Made by a program: the position numbers and the translations under genes. The notes beneath the pieces were generated by a model. The model did no database searches, was not told the DNA's origin, and saw only the letters and a list, made by a program, of their open reading frames with translations. This document shows, piece by piece, positions 2,737 through 20,100 of a DNA stretch of 64,000 nt. How positions within the stretch are numbered: the stretch's first letter is position 1; each line of letters begins with the position of its first letter. This DNA is from Agelas oroides (Eukaryota > Porifera > Demospongiae > Agelasida > Agelasidae), in NCBI GenBank assembly GCA_949130485.1, contig OX422189.1, forward strand, positions 351,220-415,219, in the 5' to 3' direction.

Positions 2737-5700
2737 ATGGATACACCGTACGACTTTGTAGCATTTCCCGAGATCGCTCCTCCCCCCCTGAGGGGAACCG
2801 TCTGGGTGCTAGGGCAGAAATACAAACTACCACAAGGTAAAATGAAGGATGATGAAATCTTGCTGCTCTCAGACAGCCATGTGTGTGTCCCTCTACCCTC
2901 CCCAGATAAAGCTCTCATGACTGATGATGTTCGTAGTAGGCTGTGGTGTACATACAGGAAAAACTTCAGGCCCATCAGTATGTGTTCTGTGTCTGTGTGT
3001 CCAGGAAACTGTTGTCGTCCGGCAAAGAGGTTGAAATCTCATGCGCTTTAGGCTGAAAACAACACACAAATTAGAAATCATATAGAAATCAAGTTGACTG
3101 ATTATGTTTGGGTTAGTTAACCCTATTGGACTATTCCATTTGATGTCCATACCCCCCACAGATGAACAGAAATCTTTGCAAAATCTCTAAACTCCCTGGA
3201 CAACAGACTATTGTAGTGTTTGACCCCTGGACAATACACAGACAAAAATGTATTACAAAGCATGTATTACAGTATGAACCCCCTGGACAAATAAAATTTT
3301 GAGAACCCCCGGACAAACTGTTCATCTATTAGGGGGGGGGGGGGGGGGGGGGGTATGGACATCAAATGGAATAGCCCATTGATGTGTTCAGAAATCATGA
3401 TCAAAATGATCTACAATTTCACGTTAGGCCCTTTGTGTGGCGCTGTGATATTAATTTACTGCATGCACAGGTGGCACAAGCTATACCAATGACCATGGGT
3501 GGGGGTGCACTCTGCGCTGTGGTCAAATGGTCCTGGCTCAGGCACTGGTCTGTCTGCACTTGGGACGAGGTACAACTCCTTCTTTCGACCCTCCCTCTCT
3601 CCACCCATTCCTCCTCCTCCTCCTCCTTCCATCTCTCCCTCCCTCTATCTTCCCTACATCCTCCCTCAACCTCTCCCATTTTTCATCGTCTTCTCTATCC
3701 TCCCTCCTCCTCTCCCTCCATCTTTTTCTCTATCCTTCCTCCACCCCTCCCTTCCTCCATCTTTTCTCTATCCTTCCTCCTCCCCTCCCTTCCTCCATCT
3801 TCCCTACATCCTCCCTCAACCTCTCCCTTCCTCCATCTTCTCTATCCTTCATCCTCCCCTCCCTCCACCCCCCCTCCTCCTTCATCCCTCTCTTCACCCC
3901 CTCCCTCAAACCCTCCATCCCTCCTTCTGTTCTTGATAATCTCTCCTTCACTTACACTCACCTAAAATACCCTCCTATTATGACAGAGTGGAGATGGAAA
4001 GAGAGAGAAGACAACCCTGTGTATATGAAGGTGGGTGTTTTCCTGTTGGAGGAGTTTTAAAGTGATTTTCCCTCGTTGGTATTGTTTTTTTTTTCCGTCA
4101 GATTTTAAGTAAATTTCTGGACACTAGAGACAGTGACTATTCCATACAAATGATTGGTAAGAAGGTATTGTATTGTTTGGGGAATTAATTCGATGTTTTA
4201 GTTTTTGGGGGGAATACGGTATGTCTTATCTGCCCACTTGCAGTGATCTCATACTGAAATGTTTTTGTTTTTGACAATAACAGAAAATGGTTTTCTAATT
4301 CCTAATATCTAAGCTCAATCCTTGGGATAAGGCCATAGTGGAAATCGGGAAAGTTCGCCATACACACATGTGCTTTCTTAATGAGGAAACTGTGCAATCA
4401 GGGTGTAATTTGGTCGATTCCAGGCCTTCTCTGCCTGCAGTTTTTGATGGCTTGCTGTATGCAAAATGAGCGATCAAAACTGGAGGCAGGAAGGTCTGGG
4501 AATGAGGTTAGTCTGATGTACAACAAGCATAGACAATACTTGTGTCATGTCAGCATGTTGATGTGACTGTATGAGATCACATGACAGTCATGTGACTATG
4601 AGATCATATGACAGTCATGTGACTGTATGAGATCACATGACAGTCATGTGACTATAAGATCACATGACAGTCATGTGACTGTAGGAGATCACATGAGTCA
4701 TGTGACTAAGATCACATGACAGTCATGTGACTAAGATCACATGACAGTCATGTGACTGAGATCACAGACAGTCATGTGACTGTATGAGATCACATGACAG
4801 TCATGTGAGTATAAGATCACATGACAGTCATGTGAGTATAAGATCACATGACAGTCATGTGACTGAGATCACATGACTGTCATGTGACTATATGAGATCA
4901 CATGACTGTCATGTGACTGTGTATGAGCTCACATGTGACTGTCCTTGCTAGCCTCACAAGGAGCTGATTTTGGGAGACAAATTGGCCAGTGGTTTGGCCC
5001 AAACAATGCTGCACAGGCCATCAAGTGAGTTTACAGTGATGGTTTCTACACTAGTCTCATACCCAGGATCATTTCGTTCCTTCATGAGAAAGAGCCTGGG
5101 TACGAGGCCACACATGGATCATTTCGTTCCTTTACTGATTTGTGCAGGAAGTTGTCAGCACATGATAATTGGAGTCAGCTGGCTGTGCACGTTGCCTTGG
5201 ATATGGTGGTGGTCATTGAAGACATAAGTAAGACACCACACAACACGTTCTTCCTCAGTTTTTGTGTACCAGTGGTTCGTTGGGTGCATTTTGAGATTTG
5301 AGCCATTGAGGAAGCCTTGTTAGTGCCCCAGGCTCCTCTCTGGCTTTCATCATACTCTCATATGAGTCTCAAACTGAGACGTGTGGGAGGGTCTGGGAAT
5401 GAGGCTAGGAGGGTACTCTTTGGGTTTTTTAAGGGAAGTAGAGCCAATTCCAGTGAGGGATAAATCTTCTTTTGTTCCCCTCCCCTCCCCCCCCCCCCCC
5501 CCACCACCACACACATACTCACACACACTCACACCACACACACACACACACACACACACACCACCACCTCCTCAGAATCATTATGTCGTGAACCTCATGT
5601 TGTCCCCCGACCCGTCAAGATCTCGACTCAACTGTCTGTCCATCACACCCCAGAACCCACTGACAGTAGACAACACAGCCGAGGGTTTGCCTTCACCAAG

Positions 5701-8700
5701 ACAAAACCGACTGGTGCATTCAAGACAGGTATTCGAATACAAATTGAGAGCGCACCAAAGAATCTTGGCACCGGTATGAAATCAGGGTCCCCGGCTTCAT
5801 CGCAACTGACAGAATCAGTGGAATATATGAAACTGAGTATGACCGACTTTGCTAACCAGGAGGGTAGTGATGGCGTTCGGGAGAAGGAAGAGGACCTGGC
5901 CACAGGAACTAGTTGCTTCCGCTCCCTGCTTCTCTTTATCCCTCTTCGGCTCGGGCAAGAGCGGTTCAACCCTGAGTACACAGAGGCCCTCAAGGTGATC
6001 CAGTTTTTGTCATGACGTAGATCTTCTATCTTTCCTTCCATTCTTCTTCCCCCCTTTCTCCCCCCTCCATCCCCTCTTCCCTCCCTTCCCTCCCTTCCCT
6101 CTCTCCCTCCCTCCTCAGGCCTGCCTCACTCTGCCGCAATCAGTTGGGATCATTGGTGGGAGACCGCGACATGCACTCTACCTGATTGGATACCACGGTA
6201 GGTACTGTCCACATAGTAAATTGTCTGGACCAGAGCGTCTACTGTTGTAGGTACCTTATTTACTCTAATTAACTGAATGTTCTAATTATGTGAAACAGGT
6301 ACTTTATTGCATTCTAATTACCTGAGAAGGAAAAAATTATTTTAGGTAATTTGGATAAATAGAGAAAAATTACCATGATTTGGTTAAATTGCTGCCTATC
6401 TGACAGAAGTATGTTATCCTCCCTCCCCTTCCTTGCCCCCTCCCCCTCCTCTCTCCCTCCCCCTCACACTCCTCTTGCAGGAGACTATGTCATGTACCTT
6501 GATCCTCACACGACACAACCGACAGTACACTCACCAGATCTTAACCACATTCCTGACTCAACCTATCACTGCGCACAACCGGACAGAATGCGTGTTGAGG
6601 AGCTGGACCCATCTCTCGCAATTGTAAGAAGCAACCTCTCTTACACCTGGGCTAGCAAGAGGTAGTCTTGTTCCTCAGACCTGAGGGAAGAGGGTCTGGT
6701 GACATTCAGTCAGCCACTTCATTGAGGGAAAAAATTAATGAAATAAATAAACGATATTATAGTTGACAACTGATTTAACTAAGCACAAAAATAGTACCGT
6801 GTCATCATTTTGAACATCCAAGGCCACACCCAGCTTTCGTACAGGCTGTTTTCTACAACGTGATTGGTAGTTAGAAATTTGTCATCATAAAAAAAAAACA
6901 AGCTTAATAAAGCCCATGGGGTTGGCTGAATGTCACCAGACCCTCTCCTCTACTGGGGGACAAGGACTGAATGCTGCTACAGCATAGTCAAGTACTGCAA
7001 GCAGTGGAACACTAGGCCTTGGGTCTGTAAACAAGGTTACGTCACCCTCTTATTCTCCTCAGGGATTTTTCTGCAAGGATGAAAACGACATTGATGATCT
7101 TTGTCGAAGATTGAGGAAGGTAAAGGTTTCGACTCTAAAAGCAGCCAATCACATTGCAGTATTTATGAATCAATATTACGATATTGTTCAAGCTCTTGTT
7201 TTGTGGTATGGACTCGGAAGTGAAGGTGTGTTTTCCATCTGTTTCCTTGTATCAGGACGTCCTCTGCAAGATGCGACACATGTTTGATCTGACAGAGAAG
7301 AGACCTGCCTACTGGGGTCCCCTGGAAACCAGCTCTCTTCGTGGTGCCGCAGAGCGTGAGTTGACAGACAGACAAACTTGAGGAAGGCATGAGGGAGGTT
7401 AATTATACCAAGGGCGTGGCGCCCCAATAAGGCCCACAACTATACCAATGCTACATATGTTTTACAATGCTCCTTAGCCAAGTAATTTGTCATCGACTGA
7501 TTAGATTCTTTGATTGGGGTCGCAGATGATACTCCAAGGTAGGCCCTGATGGATTATGCCATATAGCATAATTTTGAGAATAATAGGTAGCAAAAATAAT
7601 TATTCAAGAATAATAGGTAGTCATTTTGGTCCCAAAAGAATAATAGGTACATTTTGGGGTCACATGAATGATGAGTCGCATCCCTTTCCAGATTATTAAT
7701 TCTACGGAAAAGAATCGATACTTATTGGCAGTTATTTCTTCACTACCTGTATTGCTTGAATCGCTTCTTCTGGACCAGTTGCAATTTACTTTTCAAAAAA
7801 GTTATTCTTATGTTATTAAATATAATGAGAATAATAGGTGTGAAAAGAATAATAGGTAAGACTTTCAAGAACAAAAGAATGGAATAATAGGTAAATAATC
7901 CATCAAGGCCTACTCCAAGGAGAGTCTGGATCTTTCTCTTACTTCAGACAACACTAATGCAAACACAATACTAGTGTGATGATTCATCATCGTGGGGCGA
8001 GCCTGAGCAAGCAGCAAACTGATTTATCATTGCACAAAGCAGGATTTGTCACGCATAAGTAGGTATCTTGACTAAGTAGATGGATGGGTATCACATATGC
8101 CAACAGCTAGGACAGCTACTATCAGTGTGGCTACACATGCATGGACTAAGCTTCACACTAAAGTCATGAGCTGAATTTCTGGTGTTTATTACAGTGTCAC
8201 GGTCATGGTCCTTACCTGGAGCGACCTCAGTCAACGTGATCGAAATTAGTACTGCCTGTGGGCAGCCTGCCGTTGATGATCTGTAGCAGCAAGGAGTAAG
8301 TTGCCATGCGTGCTTCAACGTCAGTCGTCTCCGCTCCGGGTCACCGACGCTAAACTCGGGCAATAGCCTTCACCTACTGAGTCTGAGTGCATGCACTGAA
8401 CATGAGCTCGATCTTCGTAATATTAAAATTTAACCGCGCTTATTTAAAATTTACGGTATAAGGCCGCAAGCGCACGTACGTACGTACGTATACACACACA
8501 CTTCCGCAATGCAGTCCCGCTAGTACATATAGTGTGGGGCTCGCTCAGGCTCGCCCCAATTAATTTTAATTGGAAATAGTCTCATTCCCAGGCCCATCCT
8601 GGGAGTGTGACATTGAGACAGACATACCATGTCATAATGGTACACATGATAATCTGTATTCTTTTTCCTCGCATGCAGCATTCTTCCTCATGAATCCTGA

Positions 8701-8758
8701 GGAGTGTGACAGTGACTCTGACGGCTTCGAGGTTATCGAATGGCCGCCATATCAGTGA
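2737..8758 (+). CDS. ATG4: ATG4 cysteine protease (autophagin), complete, 13 exons
   Basis: ATG4 cleaves the C-terminus of ATG8/LC3 proteins before lipidation and removes them from membranes later. Exons: 2737-2836, 2906-2977, 3471-3569, 3987-4030, 4102-4156, 4961-5024, 5148-5227, 5576-5994, 6119-6197, 6481-6623, 7063-7119, 7256-7355, 8679-8758; 463 residues, all phases consistent. The catalytic Cys is about residue 70 in TNDHGWGCTLRCGQM; the Asp and His are about 345 and 347 in YLDPHTTQP. IGQWFGPNNAAQA, MPQS-type LPQSVGIIGGRP and GFFCKDE blocks also match the family. The last residues hold an acidic patch followed by FEVI, a candidate LIR motif for binding ATG8. Exon 8 adds a Ser/Thr/Lys-rich insert of roughly 80 residues ahead of LLLFIPLRLG. 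The first intron is only 69 bases and open in frame, so retaining it would add 23 residues. Confidence 0.96.
3125..3379. mobile_element. Foldback MITE with internal poly-G tract
   Basis: Inverted repeats of about 30 bases (left ACTATTCCATTTGATGTCC, right its complement GGACATCAAATGGAATAG) bound about 255 bases in ATG4 intron 2. The right arm is preceded by a run of 22 G (3332-3353). The flanks ccctattg and cccattga could be a degraded target duplication. No coding capacity. Confidence 0.75.
3575..3955. repeat. Pyrimidine-rich (CCT)n-type tract in ATG4 intron 3
   Basis: About 380 bases composed almost only of C and T in CCTCC/CTTCC arrangements, ending shortly before the exon 4 acceptor. The long open frames here (Ser/Pro-rich one way, Glu/Arg-rich the other) reflect composition, not genes. 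Confidence 0.9.
4562..4945. repeat. Palindromic E-box minisatellite array 1
   Basis: About 15 tandem units of roughly 20-26 bases with core GATCACATGACAGTCATGTGACT. Each unit is itself a near palindrome carrying CACATG/CATGTG E-box cores. It fills most of ATG4 intron 5. A related array is at 53635-53885, and shorter relatives at 30035-30180 and 33600-33780. Confidence 0.92.
7570..7895. repeat. Dispersed AGAATAATAGGTA repeats in ATG4 intron 12
   Basis: Six or more imperfect copies of (A)GAATAATAGGTA spaced irregularly over about 320 AT-rich bases. Intron 12 is the largest of the gene (7356-8678) and otherwise holds an inverted-repeat element and no sign of coding sequence. Confidence 0.7.
7994..8557. 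mobile_element. Inverted-repeat element bounded by GGGGCGAGCCTGAGC
   Basis: About 560 bases in ATG4 intron 12 flanked by inverted copies of GGGGCGAGCCTGAGCAAGC (left) and GCTCGCTCAGGCTCGCCCC (right). No coding frame was recognised inside. I cannot see a clear target duplication, so the element call is tentative. Confidence 0.5.
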
Positions 8759-9626
8759 TTTATCATCTTCATCATGGGGTCATCACTACAGTGTTGTGTT
8801 GTCATTGTTCGTTTGTTTGTTTATAACTGTTCATTATTATTTACCAACAACTGCTCGTTATTATATTATACCAACATGTCAGTGCAAGAAATTAATAAAC
8901 AATCTGTTCCAACCTTGGTTAGTACCCTCTTTCTGGTCTCATTCCCAGACTGCATGCTTGGCAAAAAGTGGTCTGGGTATGAGACTAGCCCTTCTTATTT
9001 GATACCTTCAGTTTTTGATCACTTGCAGTTTGCAGAAATGACACTCCAAAACTTTCTTCCATTTTAACATACTATGCACCAGTGATCAGGAAAGGCCCAG
9101 CCTCATTCCCAAGCTCTCCCCACAAGCCTAGGAATGAGGTTAGAGAAGGCCCAGCCTCGTTCCCAGGCTCTCCCTGCAAGCCTGGGAATAAGTTTACACC
9201 CCATGCAGCCTGCCCCTCTTGCAGCATTGGGGATTAAGCTCAAAAACCTAGGTGGTTACTGAGACCTACCTGTGCTAGTTGTGTTCCAAACTGTCACACC
9301 CCACCATGCAGTTTCGATTTCATGCTAGGAGCACTGAAGCTAGAGGTATGGGAGTCTGGGAACAAGACCAGGGCAGATCTGTGACTTGGATTTCTTGTGC
9401 AACAAAGTTTAATCATAAGTGATGTTAATTGCCATGGTTACAACAATGACCAATTGATCCAACTAACACAAGTGACCGCAATAAGAGATTGATCTATAAC
9501 GGGGTGGGATGAAATGTCAGATTTTTGTGATTCCAGACGTTATTGTTGAGTATAACATGAAATGTCAGATCTCTGTAATTTCAGCTGTTATAATATGAAA
9601 ATTACTGTAATTTCATATGTTATTCT
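8759..9626. other. Convergent intergenic region with poly(A) signal and short foldbacks
   Basis: The space between the ATG4 stop and the minus-strand gene's stop. An AATAAA at 8894-8899 is the likely ATG4 poly(A) signal. Copies of the TAGYCTCRTTCCCAGGC foldback family occur near 8937-8990 and 9100-9195. No coding exon was found. Confidence 0.6.
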
Positions 9627-12600
9627 TCAGTTGCTCAGCAACCACAAGGCAGCTGCTTTCATGTCTGCAATTCTATTCTCCATGGTGGTCACAACATCTG
9701 CATACTTGCTTGTTTCTTCAAATGCAACGATATCACGCAGCTCCTGGAATGAAAGCTAAGAGGACAAACACACGAATGTACCTCACAGGGGTATAATGTA
9801 ACAGCATGACATCGTAGTAATTACATGGAATTAGAGTGAGGCCAAGTCTTCAATATTTCATTTTGCTCTTTGGTTTGAGTTCACTATGCACAGAAGATGA
9901 AGGTTGGTGAAAACAGGAAAGCGCTCTTCTGCTTGCATCAGAAACAACCTCAGAGGACCTACAATGTTTCTTGAGGAGCATGCCCCTAGACCCTCCCTAG
10001 ACAAAGCTTTATAAAGCGTCCTCCCAAACTCAAAATTCTAGATAGAACCCTGAACTCTCCATATAGTTTTTATTGTGAATGCCGGAATCAAACGGGAAAG
10101 GCATGGGAATGGGGCTAGGTCTGTTGCAAGATTGCACACTAGTCTCGTGCCCAGACCCTCCCCGCACGTGCGAAAAGCAGAAAGAGGGTCCTGGTGTTCT
10201 GAACGACTTTTCTTGTCACATGGGGCGGGGTAGCTCTCCGATCTGAGAGCTTGAATCAGATTGCAGAATGCGTAATTATAGTAACAAGGTACTCCACAAC
10301 CGTCTTGTTAGAGACAGATGCAGCTGGATTGAGGGACCGACGCTGTTCGGACACTGGCAGAGCAATCGTATAAACGGCACAGCTTGGTATCATTCGCGCT
10401 TCCATCTTGCATGCTGCATGCAGTGCATGGGGAATGCAATAATTACATTCTTTATGCCATTCGACCCTGCCCCATGTGACAAGAAAAGTCGTTCAGAACA
10501 CCAGACCTTCTTTCCACACGTGCGGGGAGGGTCTGGGCACGAGACTAATTGCACACAAGAGTCACAGAAGAGTGTGTAAATATATCAATGACGTCGTGTC
10601 CAAAACATACGCTGTTCCAGATAGTGTCCTATAAACAGCTATTGTAGTGTACAATCAATGTTTATGATCAAGTTCTACAGTTTTTTTCAACAGTAAAGTA
10701 CCAGCCAGCTAGCCTCATTTGATTACCAGGTAGGCCTCCCTCGTTTTAACTTGTGTTTGCGTCCGCTAATTTTAGCTACTACCACATTTGGTATAAACTC
10801 ACAGTCTCATTACTCTTTCCAGTGCGATAGTAACACCTGCATAGTTTACATAAAACAATAACAACTGGATGTATTTTCAAGGTATCACAAAACTGGCTGA
10901 ATTGATCAGTTGCTACACTATAAATTTCAGACATTTTCAACCCACAGATATTATTCCAATGTATCTGATGTTAAACGTAATACCGTCGATGAAAAAGTGC
11001 TCTAGTTAATTCAGATTGATACTTTACTCACGACACAGTCGCTGTTGAGATCGTTTTTTGAACAAAAGTACTACAACTTTCAGACATTATGCTACATAAT
11101 CCCGGTTCAGTGTGTCTCTCTTTGTGTGTGTCTAGCCATTCTTTGATGGTGGACTTGAGTTTGGTTGTTCGGTTGAATGTCGTTAAACTCACCTCTCAAA
11201 CTTCGCTCCAGACTGTCCTAGTTCATTGATGGTGTGAATTTGATGGACGAGGGAAGAGTACAGTTCTAGTTGGATCACGTAGTAGTCCTCTACAATTCTG
11301 GGGCTATATTGGGGGAAGAAGTGAGGGAGAGGAAGGGTGTGGGGGAAGAAGGGAGGGGAGAGGAGAGTGTGGACGAGAATTAAAGGAGGAGGTGAGGGGA
11401 GAGCATGGGTCGGGAGAAGGGAGAAAAAGACGGGAAGACGGGAAGAAGGGAGGAGAGGACATGATTACAGCCCATTAACGCAAACATAGAAGCTAGGATG
11501 TACTGACCGTCCTTCTCTAATCTCATAGGCAACCGGGACATAGAGGACCTGGGGTACACAAAGTACGTGAACTTTGACCTCCGGTAGTCAGCTGTGGGGG
11601 GATGCACGACTCACCTTGTAACGATCGTGTTTGATACAAGGCTGGAACTCTCTCATGAGGTTATCAATGTCGATGGACAATAGGTCCCTCTGAGAGAGGC
11701 AAAAGATCGTTGGTCCTCATCAATGAAACCAGCCCTGTACGAAGGCTCTTCCCCAGCCTCCTTCCCAGGCCATATCTCATGCCCAGCCGCATATACCTCC
11801 CGGCAAGAAACAGTCTGGTGAACAAAGTCAAAATTTCTTGGGCTTATTCACAAAAAGTGGTAAGGACCAATGAGATTGCGAGATCAGTATTTATTACGTA
11901 GCACTTCCCTTACAACAGTAAAATTTTTATCTCTACTCAAGTATATATCCGTACCTTTTTTGAGCAGGTTTGGCATAAAATGTTTTGAACGTTGCTAGGT
12001 GACACTGTCACAAAAATGTGCGCTAGCCCAAGAAATTCGACTTGGCTCACCAGACTGTTTCTCCTCGTAAGAGGGTGGGGTCTGGGGACGAGACTAACTT
12101 TTTTCCGTCCTTCTGCATCAGGTGCAGAGGAATATTCTCCCCGCAGGAAAATGCTCTTCCCACGTGACATGGGTACGAGGCTACCCCTACACAAACTCAT
12201 ATCACAACTGACAAAAAGCTTGACAATGGTCTGGGTACAACAATCTGTCACGGCATTGCTCAGCTCACCTGTTTTCTGTCCATCTTGACTCCAACCACGG
12301 TGCCGATGTTCCGCACGCCAATGTAGACTGTTGAAGCCTTACCAGTGTTGATCATTGCACATACGGAGCTGGGAAGATGAAAATGAAAGTGAGTTGAAGG
12401 AAGGGTGCGGTTGGTGAGGTAGTGAGGTGTGGGGGCAGGCGTACCGCTTCAGCCGACCCTTCGGTATGTGGTAGACACTTGAACAATCACTGCAGCGAAC
12501 ATAAGAGTTATCACGTTTAGTGAAATTGCACAACTTCAGTAAACCGAGTAATGAGGTAGCCATTATTAACTGTAACCATAGCAACCCCTGATGTACTGTA

Positions 12601-15600
12601 TTTAATCTAGTGTTAACCCCTATGTACTGTATTTAATCCCCTATGTACATTAACTCATGTGTCACGTCTGGTTTGCAGGGCAGTTTAGATCCAACCAGGT
12701 AATACTTGCTGTGCGATACGCTGCCACTGGACTACATAGATAGATAGATAGATAGATACATAGCTAACATAGAGGAGAAACAAGTAGCTCACTTCACAAT
12801 GTAGGGGCTCTGCTTCCTCCTCCGACTCCTCAAAGCACCCCTCCCCCTCCCTCTCTCCCTCAGACTCTAGGCAGCGGTAGATAGGATTGGGGTTGACACG
12901 TTCCCCATTAGCACGCCTTCGCTCTCTGTATCGTCTCCTGTGCATGTGTTGCATGTGTGACACAAGGTGTGTGAACAAACATGAACCACATCTCCCTGTT
13001 GAAAGCAGGCCTAGATGTTATCAACTCACCCACTACACAATATAGAATCACGTGTATGTGTGTACGAAGGGTGGACATTGGTATGATACATTATGACATC
13101 ATATGACATCATATGACATCACTATACAACCACCAGATTTGCACAGATATTATACACAACTCAATTACAAGTGATAAGACGTGTTGTATTTGTGTGTGTG
13201 TGTGTGTTGTGCGTAAGGAGGAGGGGCTTCATTCATAATGACAAAGTAAACATTGTCTAGCACAGCTGCTGTTACACAACTCAAGTGGTATGCACACACA
13301 CGTCTACACAAGTAGTACAGCCGATTGTCCCATCGTCCAGTCCCTCACTCTGATGATGTCAGCAGCTTCTTCCGCTCCCCATTATTGTGGTGTCTTGGTG
13401 GGTTGCCATGGCTACAGCTGAGACTGAAACTCTCCTGGGTTGCACCACCTTGGCCAGCCCTGCATTCAATAACAGTATACCAGTGTTAATTATAGTATAT
13501 CATAGTATACTACAGTACGATTCAGTACACCATAGTATACCACAGTACGATTCAGTACACCATAGTATACTACAGTACAATTCAGTACACCATAGTATAC
13601 TACAGTACACCATAGTATACTACAGTATATGGGCTCACAGTTGAGGCACTGGAAGATTGCGAAGCACTCTGAGAATGCACTTCTCCATTCTCTGATTGTG
13701 TTTCTTGCTCTCCAACATGGCAGTCAGCTTAGCGCGCCCTCCCAGCTCAATCATGCGAGTGACGTTTCCCGGGCACTGCACGAGCATGTTCTGGAGGCAG
13801 CCGAGGGAGAGCCGAAAGAGCTCCTGGTCAGCAGAGTGCAACTCAGAGAGCACTAGAGTGGGACAAGAGAGCAGCACTACAGTTATGTACTTACAAAGTA
13901 AATGCATCACTTTCACAACTGAAAATCGATAGAGGAGGTTGGGAATGAGGCTACTGCCATCAGTCTGTGATTATGAGGATATTCTCCAAGGGAGGTACAG
14001 GGTCAGAAGGACTGTGGGTGGATATATCATACCAACCAGACATGAATTGTAACGAGGTGTACATACTAACTTGTGTTTCCATGGTAACAAGGTATATATA
14101 CTGTACACTAGTCTCGTCCCCAGACCCCCCTCCAGAGGGTTGAAGGGGGGTCTGGGGACGAGACTAACTGTACATTAATTTTGCTACCATATGTAGTAAT
14201 ACACACATGAAAGGGAGTGGCCTATGGACAAGGCTACCTTCAATGTACTTGGCAGCTGTTTCAAGAATGTACCATGACATTGCTTCCTCTGGCACACATG
14301 AAGACAGGACTACTACACTCCATATTTAGAGCCCACAAATTACTAATAGCCCTTGTCAGAGGATTGACAAACTTTACAATTGATGGATCGTGCACATAGT
14401 TTCACTTCCCAAATATAGAAATTAACCGATCAGATAACTACAATTTGTGTCGCTAGACAGGAGTGCCAGTACAAGTTGGTCTCACTCATCATCAACTCAA
14501 TGTTCCCCTTCTTTCCCATCTCCTCCCTCAGCTCCTCTGACACGGCCATGTTGAGGAGTGCTCCGATGGCTTGTTCCACTGTGCTACGATCAGAGCATTG
14601 GCTTAGCTGAACAGAGAAGAGGAGGGAGAGGAGAGAAGGAGAGGAGAGGAGAAGGGAGGAGAGGAGGAGGGAGGAGAGAGGAGGAGAGAGGAGAGTAGGA
14701 GAGGAGAGAAGGAAGGAGGAGAGGAGGAGGGAAGAGAGAAAGAAGGGAAGAGAAAAAGAAGGGAGGAGAGAAGGGGAAGGAGAGGAGAAGGGAGGAGAGG
14801 AGGAGGGAAGAGAGAACAGGGAAGGGGAGTGTTGATGATAATATGAAATGGTGAGTCATATTTCCGAGGATGAAACCACTGACCTTCATCAGTGCTCCTA
14901 TGCCACCAAAGTTCTTAATCTCGTACCGATAGGCGTACTTCTCAAATGCCATATTCCGCAGCACGGCTGCAAGCCCAGTGATAAAATATGAATCATCGTG
15001 AAGACCACTAGCAACGAAAGATATCATTCTGCCCTTCTTCTCACCTGCGCCATTCTCCAACATGGCCACACAGGTAGGAACAGCTGCAACCCCCAGCAAC
15101 TTGCAAGGGACAGCCTGGGGACACAATCACTTCCTCCATCATACATGCAGCATCACTTTCACTTTCACTTTCACTATGTACATTGTACAAGGTAGCAAAT
15201 AATATAAGAACACGTTTGGAGTTATGAAGCAAAATTAATAAGAAAAGAGGGAAAATCCGACAGTCACCAGAAACCGAACATGGCTGTCCTGGTTTGAGCC
15301 TCCAGTGCTCTGAGCTATGGTAAGTGGCGGCAAGAGTGTACGATGATGTCATTCTGCAAGGAAAATGACATCATTATGCATTCTTGCCGGTGGTCGAAAG
15401 TGTGTTTGAGGATAAAGACAAATATTTATGTCCAAGTAGGCTGCTCACTACACATAGCTGGCTTAGTTGATAATACACAAACCCAGATTTAGAAACGCTA
15501 GTCAAACAGACAGACAGACAGACAGATGCACACCTGTGGAGGCACCCCTCTACATGGAGGTGGGAGGGCACAGACATGTGACTTGGGGACAGTTGTGGTG

Positions 15601-16946
15601 AACCCAAAGTCCAGAGCGAAGATGAAGAGGTCCCCCGAACTCTCCACTCGGAGTAGTCTAGCACGGCACCATTGGGAGACGTTCAGGCAGGTTACAGAGG
15701 GAGAAGAGGAGGATGAAGTGGGATGGGAGGAGGGAGAGGGAGGAGAGGGAGAGGGAGGAGAGGGAGAGGGAGGAGAGGGAGAAGGAGAGGGGGCACAGAA
15801 TGCTGCGTATACATCCCCAACTGTGTAGACCAGTTCGGAAGGGGGGAGGGGAGGAGTTGGCTACAGATTGAAAGGAAGGGGAGAAGGAGAGGGAAAGAGG
15901 AGGAGGGAAGGAGAAGAGGGAGAGGGGGAAGGGGAGGAAGAGGTTTAGGAAAAGGAGGAATGAGAGGGGGAAGGGGAGAAGAGGTTTAGGAAGGGGAGGA
16001 AGGGTTCATAGACAGGACTCATCACTCAATCACAAGTGTCACTTACCAACTCCATTAGGCTGGCACACATGGCCTGGACTTGTGGGCGGGGCTCTTGGGA
16101 GCAAAACTGGCACCACACATGCCCCCCGTCCTCCACACATGACACCATTACACATGTCCACACTGGATTGGACGACTTGGGAAAGTAGGAAGGGTCAGGC
16201 CAAACTGTTCCGGAGGTGACCATCACGTTTTCGATCCAGACCTGCTCTCTAGTGGCCAGTTGTACAAGGTAGAGAGGATAGTGGAGGGAGAGAGTGTGAG
16301 GAGTTTGAGAAACAACCGAAAAATATCTGAGAATTGATTTGCGCTCATTTTCTGGTGCTTTGGCAGCTCTGCAGATCAGCTTCTTCCCAAGAGTATACTG
16401 CTCCAAGCAGCACTTTGCTTCTGGCAAGAATTGAGAGCAGGTTTGGAGAAATTCCTTGTTGGTGCAAAGGTCAATAATCAGCTTGACTCCGCCCACTTGT
16501 GCTAATTTTTGCTGGTGGTCCAAATTGAGGTAGGTCAGCTTCCGCAATGCAATCAGCACCTGTTCGTACACGGGTACCCAGTCGCCGTGCCAGCTTGGTT
16601 CCCCATGATCAAATGGGTCAGATGGGTTCGGCCGAGGGGTACAGAGGGAGAGAAGGAGAGGGATGACGTCTGTGCTTGCCAGACGGGCTCGCACGTCATC
16701 ACTGTCGTGTGCAAGAAGTGCAACACAACCAGCTGTCTTTGCCAGCAGGGTAACTCGTGAACTAGACCGTAAAACTCCTAACAGAGCCTTCACTATGCCC
16801 CGGGAAAAGGCCGCATCGCGCAGCGCCGCTCCTTCCTCCTCACCAGCATTGATACGATACAGGAGATTTGCGAGATTGGATATCGCGCTCTCCACTTCTT
16901 CTTCGCCGTACGATAAGTTAGTCAGTACTTTCTGTATGCCATCCAT
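9627..16946 (-). CDS. ARM repeats - Tudor - ARM repeats - Schlafen/AlbA_2-like multidomain protein
   Basis: Sixteen exons on the minus strand: 16946-16047, 15860-15534, 15114-15045, 14966-14884, 14606-14486, 13852-13639, 13459-13349, 12937-12793, 12731-12706, 12489-12445, 12368-12269, 11689-11615, 11578-11508, 11297-11193, 11041-11032, 9743-9627; 839 residues and every phase closes. Residues 1-300: armadillo-like helices (SAISNLANLLYRI, IALRKLTYLNLDHQQKLAQV). About 301-409: Tudor domain (YTVGDVYAAFC, WCRARLLRV, FALDFGFTTTVP) with a Pro/Ser insert. About 410-571: more ARM repeats (AVLRNMAFEKY, AIGALLNMAV, LGCLQNMLVQ). From about 658: AlbA_2/Schlafen-like core (VCAMINTGKASTVYIGV, GTVVGVKMD). 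Tudor proteins bind dimethylarginine, often on piRNA-pathway partners; Schlafen-like folds can be tRNA or piRNA-precursor nucleases. Weak points: the 26-base and 10-base microexons, and a stop at 13635 that would end a shorter ARM-Tudor protein if the 13639 donor is unused. The two halves could then be separate genes. Confidence 0.7.
10140..10547. mobile_element. Foldback MITE with exact 9-base target duplication
   Basis: About 408 bases with inverted arms of 80 or more bases; left end TAGTCTCGTGCCCAGACC, right end GGTCTGGGCACGAGACTA. Flanked by ATTGCACAC on both sides (10131-10139 and 10548-10556). Lies in the last intron of the ARM-Tudor gene. No transposase frame. Confidence 0.9.
11745..12095. 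mobile_element. Foldback element with CCTCCCGGCAAGAAAC arms
   Basis: Left arm (about 11745-11860) and right arm (about 11990-12095) are imperfect inverted copies that share TCTTGGGC/GCCCAAGA and the CAGTCTGGTGA/TCACCAGACTG blocks; the right end is TCTGGGGACGAGACTA of the common foldback family. A related fragment with CTCCCGGCAAGAAACG is near 63426. It sits in an intron of the ARM-Tudor gene. Confidence 0.7.
13480..13630. repeat. CAGTACACCATAGTATACTA minisatellite
   Basis: Tandem units of about 20-30 bases containing CATAGTATAC and CAGTACGATTCAGTACAC in an intron of the minus-strand gene. Similar TATACTGT-type repeats recur at 52290-52645. Confidence 0.85.
14109..14166. mobile_element. Short palindromic foldback, 9-base target duplication
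   Basis: A 58-base near-perfect hairpin, TAGTCTCGTCCCCAGACC to GGTCTGGGGACGAGACTA, flanked by ACTGTACAC on the left and ACTGTACAT on the right. Minimal member of the same family as 10140-10547. Confidence 0.88.
14612..14830. repeat. GGAGAG-type purine tract
   Basis: About 220 bases of GGAGAGGAG/GAGGAAG repeats within an intron of the minus-strand gene; on the coding strand this is the CT-rich tract upstream of the exon starting at 14606. Confidence 0.85.
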
Positions 16947-17170
16947 AACCCTGCTGCTGCACGGCCACTTTCCGACGCCACGTGGACGTAGGGGATAACC
17001 TCGTTCCCAGGCCCTCACCACCGTGATAGTGAACGGCCTGGGAACGAGGCTACGTGGGGGAGGAGGTGCGTTGGAATTTTCCGTGTTCCGAACGGAATCC
17101 CTCCTATTGATAATACCGTGAATGTAACTAGAGGAATTCCGTAAATTTGTTAGTAAACAGTTTGTTCCCG
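16947..17170. promoter_or_regulatory. Divergent promoter, ARM-Tudor / NALCN, holding a foldback insertion
   Basis: A gap of 224 bases between the two start codons. It contains a 57-base foldback (16996-17052) with 9-base flanking duplications CGTAGGGGA/CGTGGGGGA, so a mobile element has inserted inside the intergenic promoter space. Promoter function is inferred from position. Confidence 0.5.
16996..17052. mobile_element. Short palindromic foldback in the divergent promoter
   Basis: Starts TAACCTCGTTCCCAGGCC and ends GGCCTGGGAACGAGGCTA, with 9-base target duplications differing at one base (16987-16995 and 17053-17061). Confidence 0.88.
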
Positions 17171-20100
17171 ATGGAGCACCCTGGCGGGTTGGAAACTTCG
17201 CGAGGGAAATCGAGGTACGTCCAGCGTCCTGCAAGGAAGCGCAGGCACCAAGAGCGGCCTTCACGGCACGCAAGCCACTCCACGTCTATTTCCCTTGATC
17301 AAGAAATTAGTCGCGAAGAAGAAGAAGACCCAGTGAATGTAGACGTATCTGCATTGGAGCAGACGGTAGCACAGAGGGAAGAAGGGAGCGGGGAGGACGA
17401 CTCGGCGCGACACCTGTGCTTGGAGAAATGCGTGACGCTGGTGGAGAGGAAAAGAGTGCGCCAGTTCTTCCGACTTTGCGCTGTCGTCAACGTGCTCTCG
17501 CTGATGGCCTCCGGACCTTTCCAGCAGTGCAGGTCGAACATGAGAACCGACAACAGAAATGAGACGAACTACGACTGCTTCCCGCAGTTTGTGACCATTG
17601 CCTGCGTGGACTTCGTGCTTAGTGTGCTGTTCACTATACAGCTTGTCGCCCGATTGCAGTACGCATGGTGGCATCGCAAGACAGCTAGCAAAGTAAGTGG
17701 CCTGAGGATTTGCGTTCAGTCCCATAACCGTTCACTGGTTTTGCTATATATTCCGAGGCTGCTAATCAGAGCCTATTTTTGCCCAATAGTGCAGCCCCGA
17801 AGTTCCAATGGCATCACAGTGGAAACGCTTTCGTTACATTTCAGAGGTTTCAGGTTTAATACAATAACCACATGATAATTCGACTAACCTTGGCACTCTG
17901 TCGTTTCAGTATATCAGAAATGTTTTTATTCTTTCATGTGGAGGATAATGGGATATTGGTTGAATATATGCTTACTCACTTTTTTTAACACTGCCCAACT
18001 TAGATTTTATCACTGCCCAATCTAGCTTAATCACTGCACAAATGGGCAGTGTTACCTGTTTTAGGCCCTGCTGCTAATAGTTAGCTAGTAACCATACCTT
18101 GATGCAGAGGAACAAGGTAAGCGCCTGATCACGCTTGCAGACAATACATTTGACAGCTAACACGTTGCACTACTGCTGAAGGCTCTGCAACGTAGCCATA
18201 GGCTATGCTTTGCCGTTGCTTGACTTCTTAGAAGAGTTTCTGGTTTCTTGAGGCTTCTTTGAGTTGATGCTGGTTGCTTGACTTCTTATATATAGGGAAG
18301 GATTTCTGGTTGCTTGACTAGTGCAGGATTTCTGGTTTTGGGGTGATAGGGAAGGATTTCTGGTTACTTGACTTTATGGTTGTTATATTATGAAAGATTT
18401 CTGGTGAATTATGTATATAACCTATACCTCTCACTTCAATAGTCTCTTCATCTTCTTGGCAATGCATGCAACAACATCCTTCTACATGTCAGTACTGTTC
18501 TCCATTGCTTACACATTGCAGAAGTATCTGCCTATAGTATTGCCTGCAAATAGTCACTGAGTGGCTGTAATGAGAAATGTCTCAACCCTCATTTGCAGGT
18601 TCCCACGCCTCCCATCCCAGCCCCTGCTCAGGGAGGTCAATCGGGACGGAGATACAAGGAGCAGACATTCACCACTTTCATAAGGATCCTTCTCCTCACC
18701 CTGATCACGTTCTCACTGTGGTGGTCTGTAGCCATAGGAGTGAGTGGCCACCCAAATTCCAGCTTGCTTTGCAGTCATAATTATAGTCTTCAAATTGAAC
18801 TCTATAATTATTTAATGCATGCTTGTGCATGAACAGTTAATGAGCCGCAGCTTTGCTAGTTAAAATGTCTGACCTAACGTTATGTTGGGTCACCCACTGC
18901 CCAGACATGCTTGACCTATAGCAGTCTATCAAGCCAGACCATCTCTCACCCTCCAGAAAAGTGAGAGGGGGTCTAATCTTCTCTCACTTTTCTGGAGGGT
19001 GAGAGATGGTCTGGCTTGATAGACTAGACCTACAGCTGCTGGAACTCTTGTACTATAAATAAATAAAGTTAAGCTTTTCGTTGCTTGGAAACAATTTAGT
19101 TGAAAATTAATGCGAGAACAAATACAACTGGAGGTCTTCAGAGAAGACATACCCCGCGCAATTTATATGTCAGCAAACTGAACTGTTTCTTACCCATGCG
19201 TGCCCATAACTATTGCATATTAAATGTTTGTGGTATGCAGTGTACATAATATAAGTATAACATTAAAACTGGCTGTAGGGATGGAAGCTCCAAGGGTTTT
19301 TTTATACTTTCCAACTGAAGGTCTACTCTTGTGCCCAGCCTGCCACACCCCCTGATGGCTGTCAGCAAATATTTGCTGACCAACTTCATAGAGTAACTGA
19401 CCGACCTCATAAAGTAAATGACTGACCTCGTGAAGTAACTGACTGACCTCATCAAGCCCGCGTAGGAGCGTTCGGATTTTTTTGACACTAATAACACGCC
19501 ACATTTCACTCACCTGTCAAATGGTAGTCTCGTGCCCAGCCGTCCATGAGATCGAGACTAGTCAAATCAAGTGAATGCGTAGCCTTGTTCCCAGGCCCCT
19601 GCCCAGCTTTTCGCAATCCTGGGAATGAGGAGGCTGGTGAACGCGAACACGTGCTTGGAGTCCGCATATGCCTGGTGTCCACCGTATCCAAGTGGTTGAC
19701 CGTATCAAAATGGTGGACAATACCAATGTTAAATAGAAAATAGCTGGAAATGCAGAGGAGTGAAATGCTTTGGTCTCTATCAGGTACACATACATTTTTT
19801 TTTTTAGATTGCCATGTCATCGCCGCGTACAGCAACTGTTTAACCCAGTAAATGTGCTGATTTCAAAATTTTTCACTGGACTGACAAACTGACAGACTGA
19901 CTGACAGACGGACAAAACTGATTGCTTAACCCCTTCGCGCATGCGCGCGCAGGGTAATTACTGATGACATGCACTAAAGCATTTACTGACATACACACAT
20001 ACATGTAGCAGCATGCTAACTGAGACAAAATTGGAAGTTTAATACAATGTAAACACACACACACACACACACACATACACTCACACACACACATACACAC

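Follow-up and report, generated by a model that had tools for sequence, protein, structure and literature searches.

Does a single protein of the sponge Agelas oroides combine armadillo (ARM) repeats, a Tudor domain and a Schlafen-like domain, or are these the products of two neighbouring genes? The question is raised by a stretch of 64,000 nucleotides (nt) on contig OX422189.1 (assembly GCA_949130485.1, positions 351,220 to 415,219 of the forward strand), below called the window. A first-pass annotation, made from the letters and their open reading frames, had joined all three domains into one polypeptide. Two coding blocks lie in tandem on the minus strand: an ARM-Tudor-ARM block at 16946-13635 (gene A) and then a block of Schlafen-like AlbA_2 exons at 12731-9627 (gene B). 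On balance, we read them as two neighbouring genes. This reading is favoured by the complete frame of gene A, a link between the blocks that is at chance level, the weak acceptor at 12937, a separate start for gene B, and a relative of gene B modelled as free-standing elsewhere in the genome. The odds given here to the different readings are our judgement and were not computed.

The domain assignments of the first-pass annotation held for both blocks. With its exons rebuilt from the sequence, gene A has a complete reading frame, whose 572 codons run from the ATG at 16946 to the TGA at 13637-13635. Pfam gives TUDOR at 48.5 bits (cut-off 23; strongest stretch, residues 363-415) and Arm at 26.7 bits (cut-off 20.6; residues 448-481). 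The ARM_ARMC5 profile scores 46 bits on residues 445-561, under the family cut-off of 79.9. The stop codon follows the last ARM match by 11 residues. A PDB search with gene A retrieved engineered ARM proteins, Vac8, Tudor-SN and TDRKH. The TDRKH alignment (E 2e-6; a query of 134 residues with a 31-residue proline/serine insert removed, aligned over 9-131) spans both halves of the extended Tudor domain, encoded by exons 1-3, and gene A thus has the Tudor core together with the SN-like half. In what would be the aromatic cage of a methylarginine-reading Tudor domain, gene A has WC where TDRKH has WY (of WYRAR) and DFGFT where TDRKH has DFGDN. Predicted from its sequence alone, the structure of exon 1 is largely helical between residues 2 and 183, at low confidence (mean predicted local distance difference test score, pLDDT, 47.6, and below 50 from residue 149). 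From the Pfam and PDB matches and this helical model, the order of domains in gene A is ARM-like, Tudor, ARM.

Gene B matches PF04326 (AlbA_2) above the cut-off of 25.3 bits (36 bits, E 1.2e-8; profile positions 19-117 of 118). The match covers residues 92-218, from exon 12489-12445 through exon 10836-10803, and is the only PF04326 stretch found in gene B by the Pfam search. The lack of any AlbA_2 match, which the first-pass annotation had named as refuting its reading, was therefore not observed.

The exon chain of the first-pass annotation can indeed be read through: its 16 exons form one open frame with all phases matching (862 residues; 2589 nt with the stop codon), and a good donor, GTGAGC (score 7.5), overlaps the stop of gene A as described. 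In such a fusion a Schlafen-like subunit would be anchored to its partners through the Tudor/ARM half. The 111-nt linking exon 13459-13349 may be skipped without loss of phase; a direct intron would be 701 nt long, within the range of 61-1047 nt seen in genes A and B. We regard the fusion as a serious possibility, somewhat less probable than two genes. Phase matching of the linking exons was considered as evidence for it and rejected, as most shuffled sequences perform no worse.

The link was scored by combining splice sites and codons along exon chains. Splice scores used general animal frequencies as a prior, together with the 13 sites of genes A and B themselves; for the codon scores, the training set consisted of Ras and Tudor loci from the same genome. 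Shuffles preserved dinucleotides, with 400 per scheme. When 13629-12754 was shuffled, acidic exon included, the joined chain equalled or exceeded the real one in 29 of 400 cases and the separate chain in 15 of 400; in an earlier run of this kind, again with the acidic exon shuffled, the joined chain did so in 13 of 150. With the sequence from 12925 down left intact, the counts rose to 325/400 (joined) and 310/400 (separate), and with that from 12887 down left intact, to 344/400 and 324/400. The domain blocks exceed chance; the link between the halves does not. As the joining stretch could be linked equally well by chance, the DNA does not decide for or against a fusion.

The acceptor at 12937 scores -1.1, the lowest of all: the 13 other acceptors of genes A and B, each left out in turn, score 2.2 to 11.7, and 36% of the 4627 AGs on the minus strand score -1.1 or better. 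It is nevertheless the best acceptor that brings the acidic exon into phase with the donor at the gene A stop, the next being 12925 (-2.2). Codon use in the linking exon 13459-13349 is background-like: its -0.045 bit per codon falls in the third quartile (50th to 75th percentile) of open non-coding segments, and fewer than 5% of coding segments score so low.

Contrary to the first-pass annotation, start codons are present between the halves. The ATGs at 12954 and 12945 share the frame of the acidic exon. The candidate exon starting with the ATG at 13078 ends at a donor (9.0) that no other donor in the interval surpasses, and it can be spliced in phase to 12866-12793, whose acceptor scores 6.5. 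A separate gene B starting there would have stronger splice sites than the fusion link.

Several results weigh against two separate genes. The exon from the ATG at 13078 has a codon score of -4.4 bits and a weak start context. Little weight attaches to the low codon score of 13459-13349, since three of the 14 other scored exons, all of them accepted (15860-15534, 12731-12649 and 10836-10803), score lower. The best joined chain has 33.7, compared with 30.4 for the best separate chain; this small lead is no evidence, however, because the joined chain is also ahead in 87 to 92% of shuffles. The donor at the stop of gene A is matched by 1.9% of the 4255 GTs on the minus strand. Of 25 Ras-family gene ends elsewhere in the genome, four have a donor that good either within the final 60 nt or overlapping the stop, and one of 25 has it overlapping the stop itself.

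Promoter and poly(A) signals point the same way. The mean CpG ratio of the window is 0.42; the ratio peaks at 1.18 at the start of gene A and at 0.56 at that of gene B. The latter value falls between the 25th (0.52) and the 50th (0.65) percentile of 252 window positions, in agreement with the earlier statement that no promoter is visible between the halves. For calibration, the peak exceeds 0.6 at 26 of 29 Ras-family starts, a subset consisting of matches that begin at Ras profile position 1 (11 loci and 18 fetched ones), this position being assumed to be the gene start. Among the 11 loci, the three on the minus strand (L045, L048 and L061) were measured at the opposite end of the match, and their values at the correct end are also above 0.6. 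CpG-enriched starts are described for the sponges Ephydatia and Sycon, with only slight enrichment in Amphimedon (PMC7385117). Neither AATAAA nor ATTAAA occurs in the 996 nt after the stop of gene A. Such a signal lies within 700 nt of 14 of the 25 Ras-family ends, compared with 28% of random 700-nt stretches; it follows the stop of gene B by 213 nt and that of the neighbouring ATG4-like gene by 135 nt. The poly(A) and stop-donor controls are 25 of 30 Ras loci (L054, L056, L066 and L067, whose matches fall short of the domain end, and L069 were omitted), and their effective number is below 25 because several are near-identical copies. In our judgement, the CpG, poly(A) and stop-donor observations each shift the odds a few-fold towards one transcription unit.

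The same observations bear on an arrangement that we think improbable, with one promoter at the CpG island of gene A and two products: some transcripts would stop after 13635, and others would splice into gene B, yielding a separate or read-through product. That only the start of gene A is CpG-rich and that a good donor lies over its stop would fit this arrangement; the lack of AATAAA or ATTAAA behind the short form does not. As for the single polypeptide with ARM, Tudor and AlbA_2 domains, both domain calls and the open frame stand, while the linking exons do not rise above chance. It retains its place because the start of gene B is not CpG-rich and no poly(A) signal lies near the end of gene A.

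A relative of gene B adds to the case for two genes. A six-frame search of the genome with PF04326 (E up to 10) gave two places, the core exon of gene B (21.5 bits) and G000:C4:8172074-8172148 (16.5 bits), both under the cut-off because introns split the domain; further intron-split members may be missed by such a search. The C4 relative, from G000:C4 8171246, has its own ATG (L040:3247) with a CpG peak of 0.76 nearby. After rebuilding, it scores 43 bits with PF04326, and its pairwise alignment with gene B has 147 columns with 27% identity (E 2e-10). The only Tudor match listed on C4, at 4321808, is megabases away. The relative is thus modelled as free-standing. This is a model rather than proof, as the first donor is weak (1.6) and the 3' end unsettled. 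Its exon L040:4369-4477 seemingly ends at a GC donor (ACAG|GCAAGT); gene B has a nearby GT donor in another phase. In a genome search gene B matched, outside its own exons, only this distant relative, and weakly. The only other copy of gene A found is a 259-base piece of exon 1, 92% identical, at G000:C4:457665-457923 (L039:4666-4924).

The active site of gene B appears to be altered. Searched alone against PDB, gene B found no Schlafen chains, only unrelated proteins with E of 0.6 to 1.1, and it had zero matches in NCBIfam or plasmids. A profile of gene B and its C4 relative matched chains of SLFN5, 11, 12, 14, Schlafen 8 or SAMD9 in 12 of 14 PDB hits, with the best E at 0.01. In the SLFN14 alignment, at the positions that we take to be those of E205, E210 and D248 of rat SLFN13, gene B reads D, L and N. 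The SLFN5 alignment has a different register and likewise lacks the triad. Both alignments are weak, and the reading depends on how exons 12731-12649 and 12489-12445 are modelled. They agree with the earlier remark on the acidic residues usual in Schlafen proteins, some of which are missing. According to PMC5862951, mutation of any of E205, E210 and D248 lowers the activity of SLFN13, and E205A and E210A are inactive. As the canonical E-E-D triad is absent from the alignments, gene B is likelier to encode a non-catalytic subunit than a nuclease.

If there are two genes, gene A would encode an ARM-Tudor-ARM protein of 572 residues, most likely a scaffold that binds partner proteins through its helical repeats and its extended Tudor domain. 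Gene B, from about 13078 to 9627, would be a separate transcription unit, and its product of roughly 246 residues would carry a single AlbA_2 domain of Schlafen-like type. Because the active-site positions are altered and the genome holds a divergent relative at another place, this protein would probably be a non-catalytic or composite-site subunit needing other Schlafen-like proteins.

Features of the locus; all coordinates are positions in the window
Feature	Position	Strand	Remarks
Gene A exon 1, 300 aa	16047-16946	-	helical ARM-like repeats at the N-terminus, then the first half of extended Tudor; one open exon, donor GTAAGT
Gene A exon 2	15534-15860	-	proline/serine-rich insert and Tudor core; contains six-frame genome match G000:C7:366741-366893
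Gene A exon 3	15045-15114	-	end of Tudor domain; in phase; TDRKH alignment reaches into it
Gene A exon 4	14884-14966	-	C-terminal ARM repeats (Pfam Arm 448-481, ARMC5 profile 445-561)
Gene A exon 5	14486-14606	-	C-terminal ARM repeats; in phase
Gene A exon 6	13635-13852	-	final ARM repeats; TGA 13637-13635; donor-like GTGAGC over stop, score 7.5
Linking exon of the first-pass annotation, doubtful	13349-13459	-	111 nt; acceptor 6.9, donor 5.2
Candidate first coding exon of separate gene B	13030-13078	-	ATG 13078, 16 codons and one base; donor TGG|GTGAGT 9.0
Acidic low-complexity exon preceding Schlafen-like domain	12793-12937	-	start 12937 (fusion, acceptor -1.1) or 12866 (separate, acceptor 6.5)
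Gene B exon KYYLVGSKLPCKPDVTHEL	12649-12731	-	start of Schlafen-like domain, outside Pfam match; acceptor 10.6; aligns to C4 relative and SLFN5
Gene B exon DCSSVYHIPKGRLK	12445-12489	-	Pfam match starts here
Gene B exon VCAMINTGKASTVYIGVRNIGTVVGVKMDRKQ, AlbA_2 core	12269-12368	-	alone 21.5 bits with PF04326, under cut-off
Gene B exon, AlbA_2	11615-11689	-	
Gene B exon, AlbA_2	11508-11548	-	
Gene B exon, AlbA_2	11193-11303	-	
Gene B exon, AlbA_2 match ends	10803-10836	-	
Gene B last exon	9627-9755	-	stop TGA 9629-9627; ATTAAA 213 nt downstream
CpG-rich island over gene A start and adjoining plus-strand open frame	16601-17800	.	CpG observed/expected 0.89-1.13

The introns of gene B contain inverted repeats at 10140-10547 (nested 41-nt arms, 98% and 93%) and 11806-12062 (30-nt arms, 87%), which resemble short non-autonomous mobile elements; 14109-14166 holds another hairpin of this sort. 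The base skew of the interval between the genes, compared with that of introns, was uninformative. Convergent with gene B is an ATG4-like gene at about 2738-8758 on the plus strand, with a Peptidase_C54 match in 3455-4057, ends read by eye, and an AATAAA 135 nt past the stop assumed for it. The region 8201-8800 at its 3' end is CpG-rich (observed/expected 1.0-1.1) with no obvious gene start, and holds an ACGT simple repeat.

As to function, the piRNA- or tRNA-processing role proposed at first pass is an inference; the carboxylate triad needed in SLFN13 is not kept in the alignments of gene B. A small-RNA role is possible because the genome also holds Piwi-domain and Tudor matches, 27 at exon level (PIWI and Argonaute proteins taken together) and 43, respectively. 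Fourteen Tudor matches lie inside a single open frame of 4036 codons at G000:C17:7466770-7476168. A true fusion would connect Tudor-type scaffolds with Schlafen-like RNA processing beyond the nematodes and open this link to direct tests. Two separate genes would still leave an ARM-Tudor-ARM protein and one of the two divergent single-domain Schlafen-like loci found, in a genome with Piwi-domain genes and many Tudor domains, and would help to ask how old such proteins are.

Each part of the locus resembles a known system in some respects. Our literature search, limited to one library, found no paper that mentions Tudor domains and armadillo repeats along with piRNA, or along with the germline and domain architecture; this architecture may still be published. 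Gene A resembles ARMC5-type repeats through its ARM_ARMC5 match and differs in that this match is below the family cut-off and that the Tudor domain sits among the repeats. With TDRKH and other extended-Tudor proteins it shares both halves of the extended Tudor domain; unlike them, it has ARM repeats on both sides of this domain and the substitutions in the cage region. The joint profile of gene B and its C4 relative matches the cores of mammalian SLFN5, SLFN11, SLFN12, SLFN14 and Schlafen 8/SLFN13. However, these cores are two-lobed and made of two SLFN folds, whereas gene B has one domain match and has not kept the triad.

A further parallel is the PUCH complex of C. elegans (TOFU-1, TOFU-2 and SLFL-3/4), described in PMC10567574 as a trimer of proteins with a single SLFN fold, with the potential catalytic residues in TOFU-2 and not in TOFU-1. 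Gene B likewise has one SLFN-type domain match (PF04326) and, like TOFU-1, an apparently altered active site. A PUCH-type subunit would assemble with two other SLFL proteins and take part in the cleavage of capped precursors; besides gene B, the genome search gave one further SLFN-like locus, the C4 relative. The worm partner complex includes an extended Tudor protein, TOFU-6, whose extended Tudor domain is bound by TOFU-1 (PMC10567574). The worm has its Tudor and Schlafen-like proteins as separate polypeptides. An ARM-Tudor-ARM scaffold ending in an altered single Schlafen-like domain, which we consider less likely than not, would fuse the tether and the nuclease-complex subunit that are separate in worm PETISCO-PUCH. 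As TOFU-6 and TOFU-1 interact as separate proteins in that account, a Tudor-Schlafen partnership needs no fusion.

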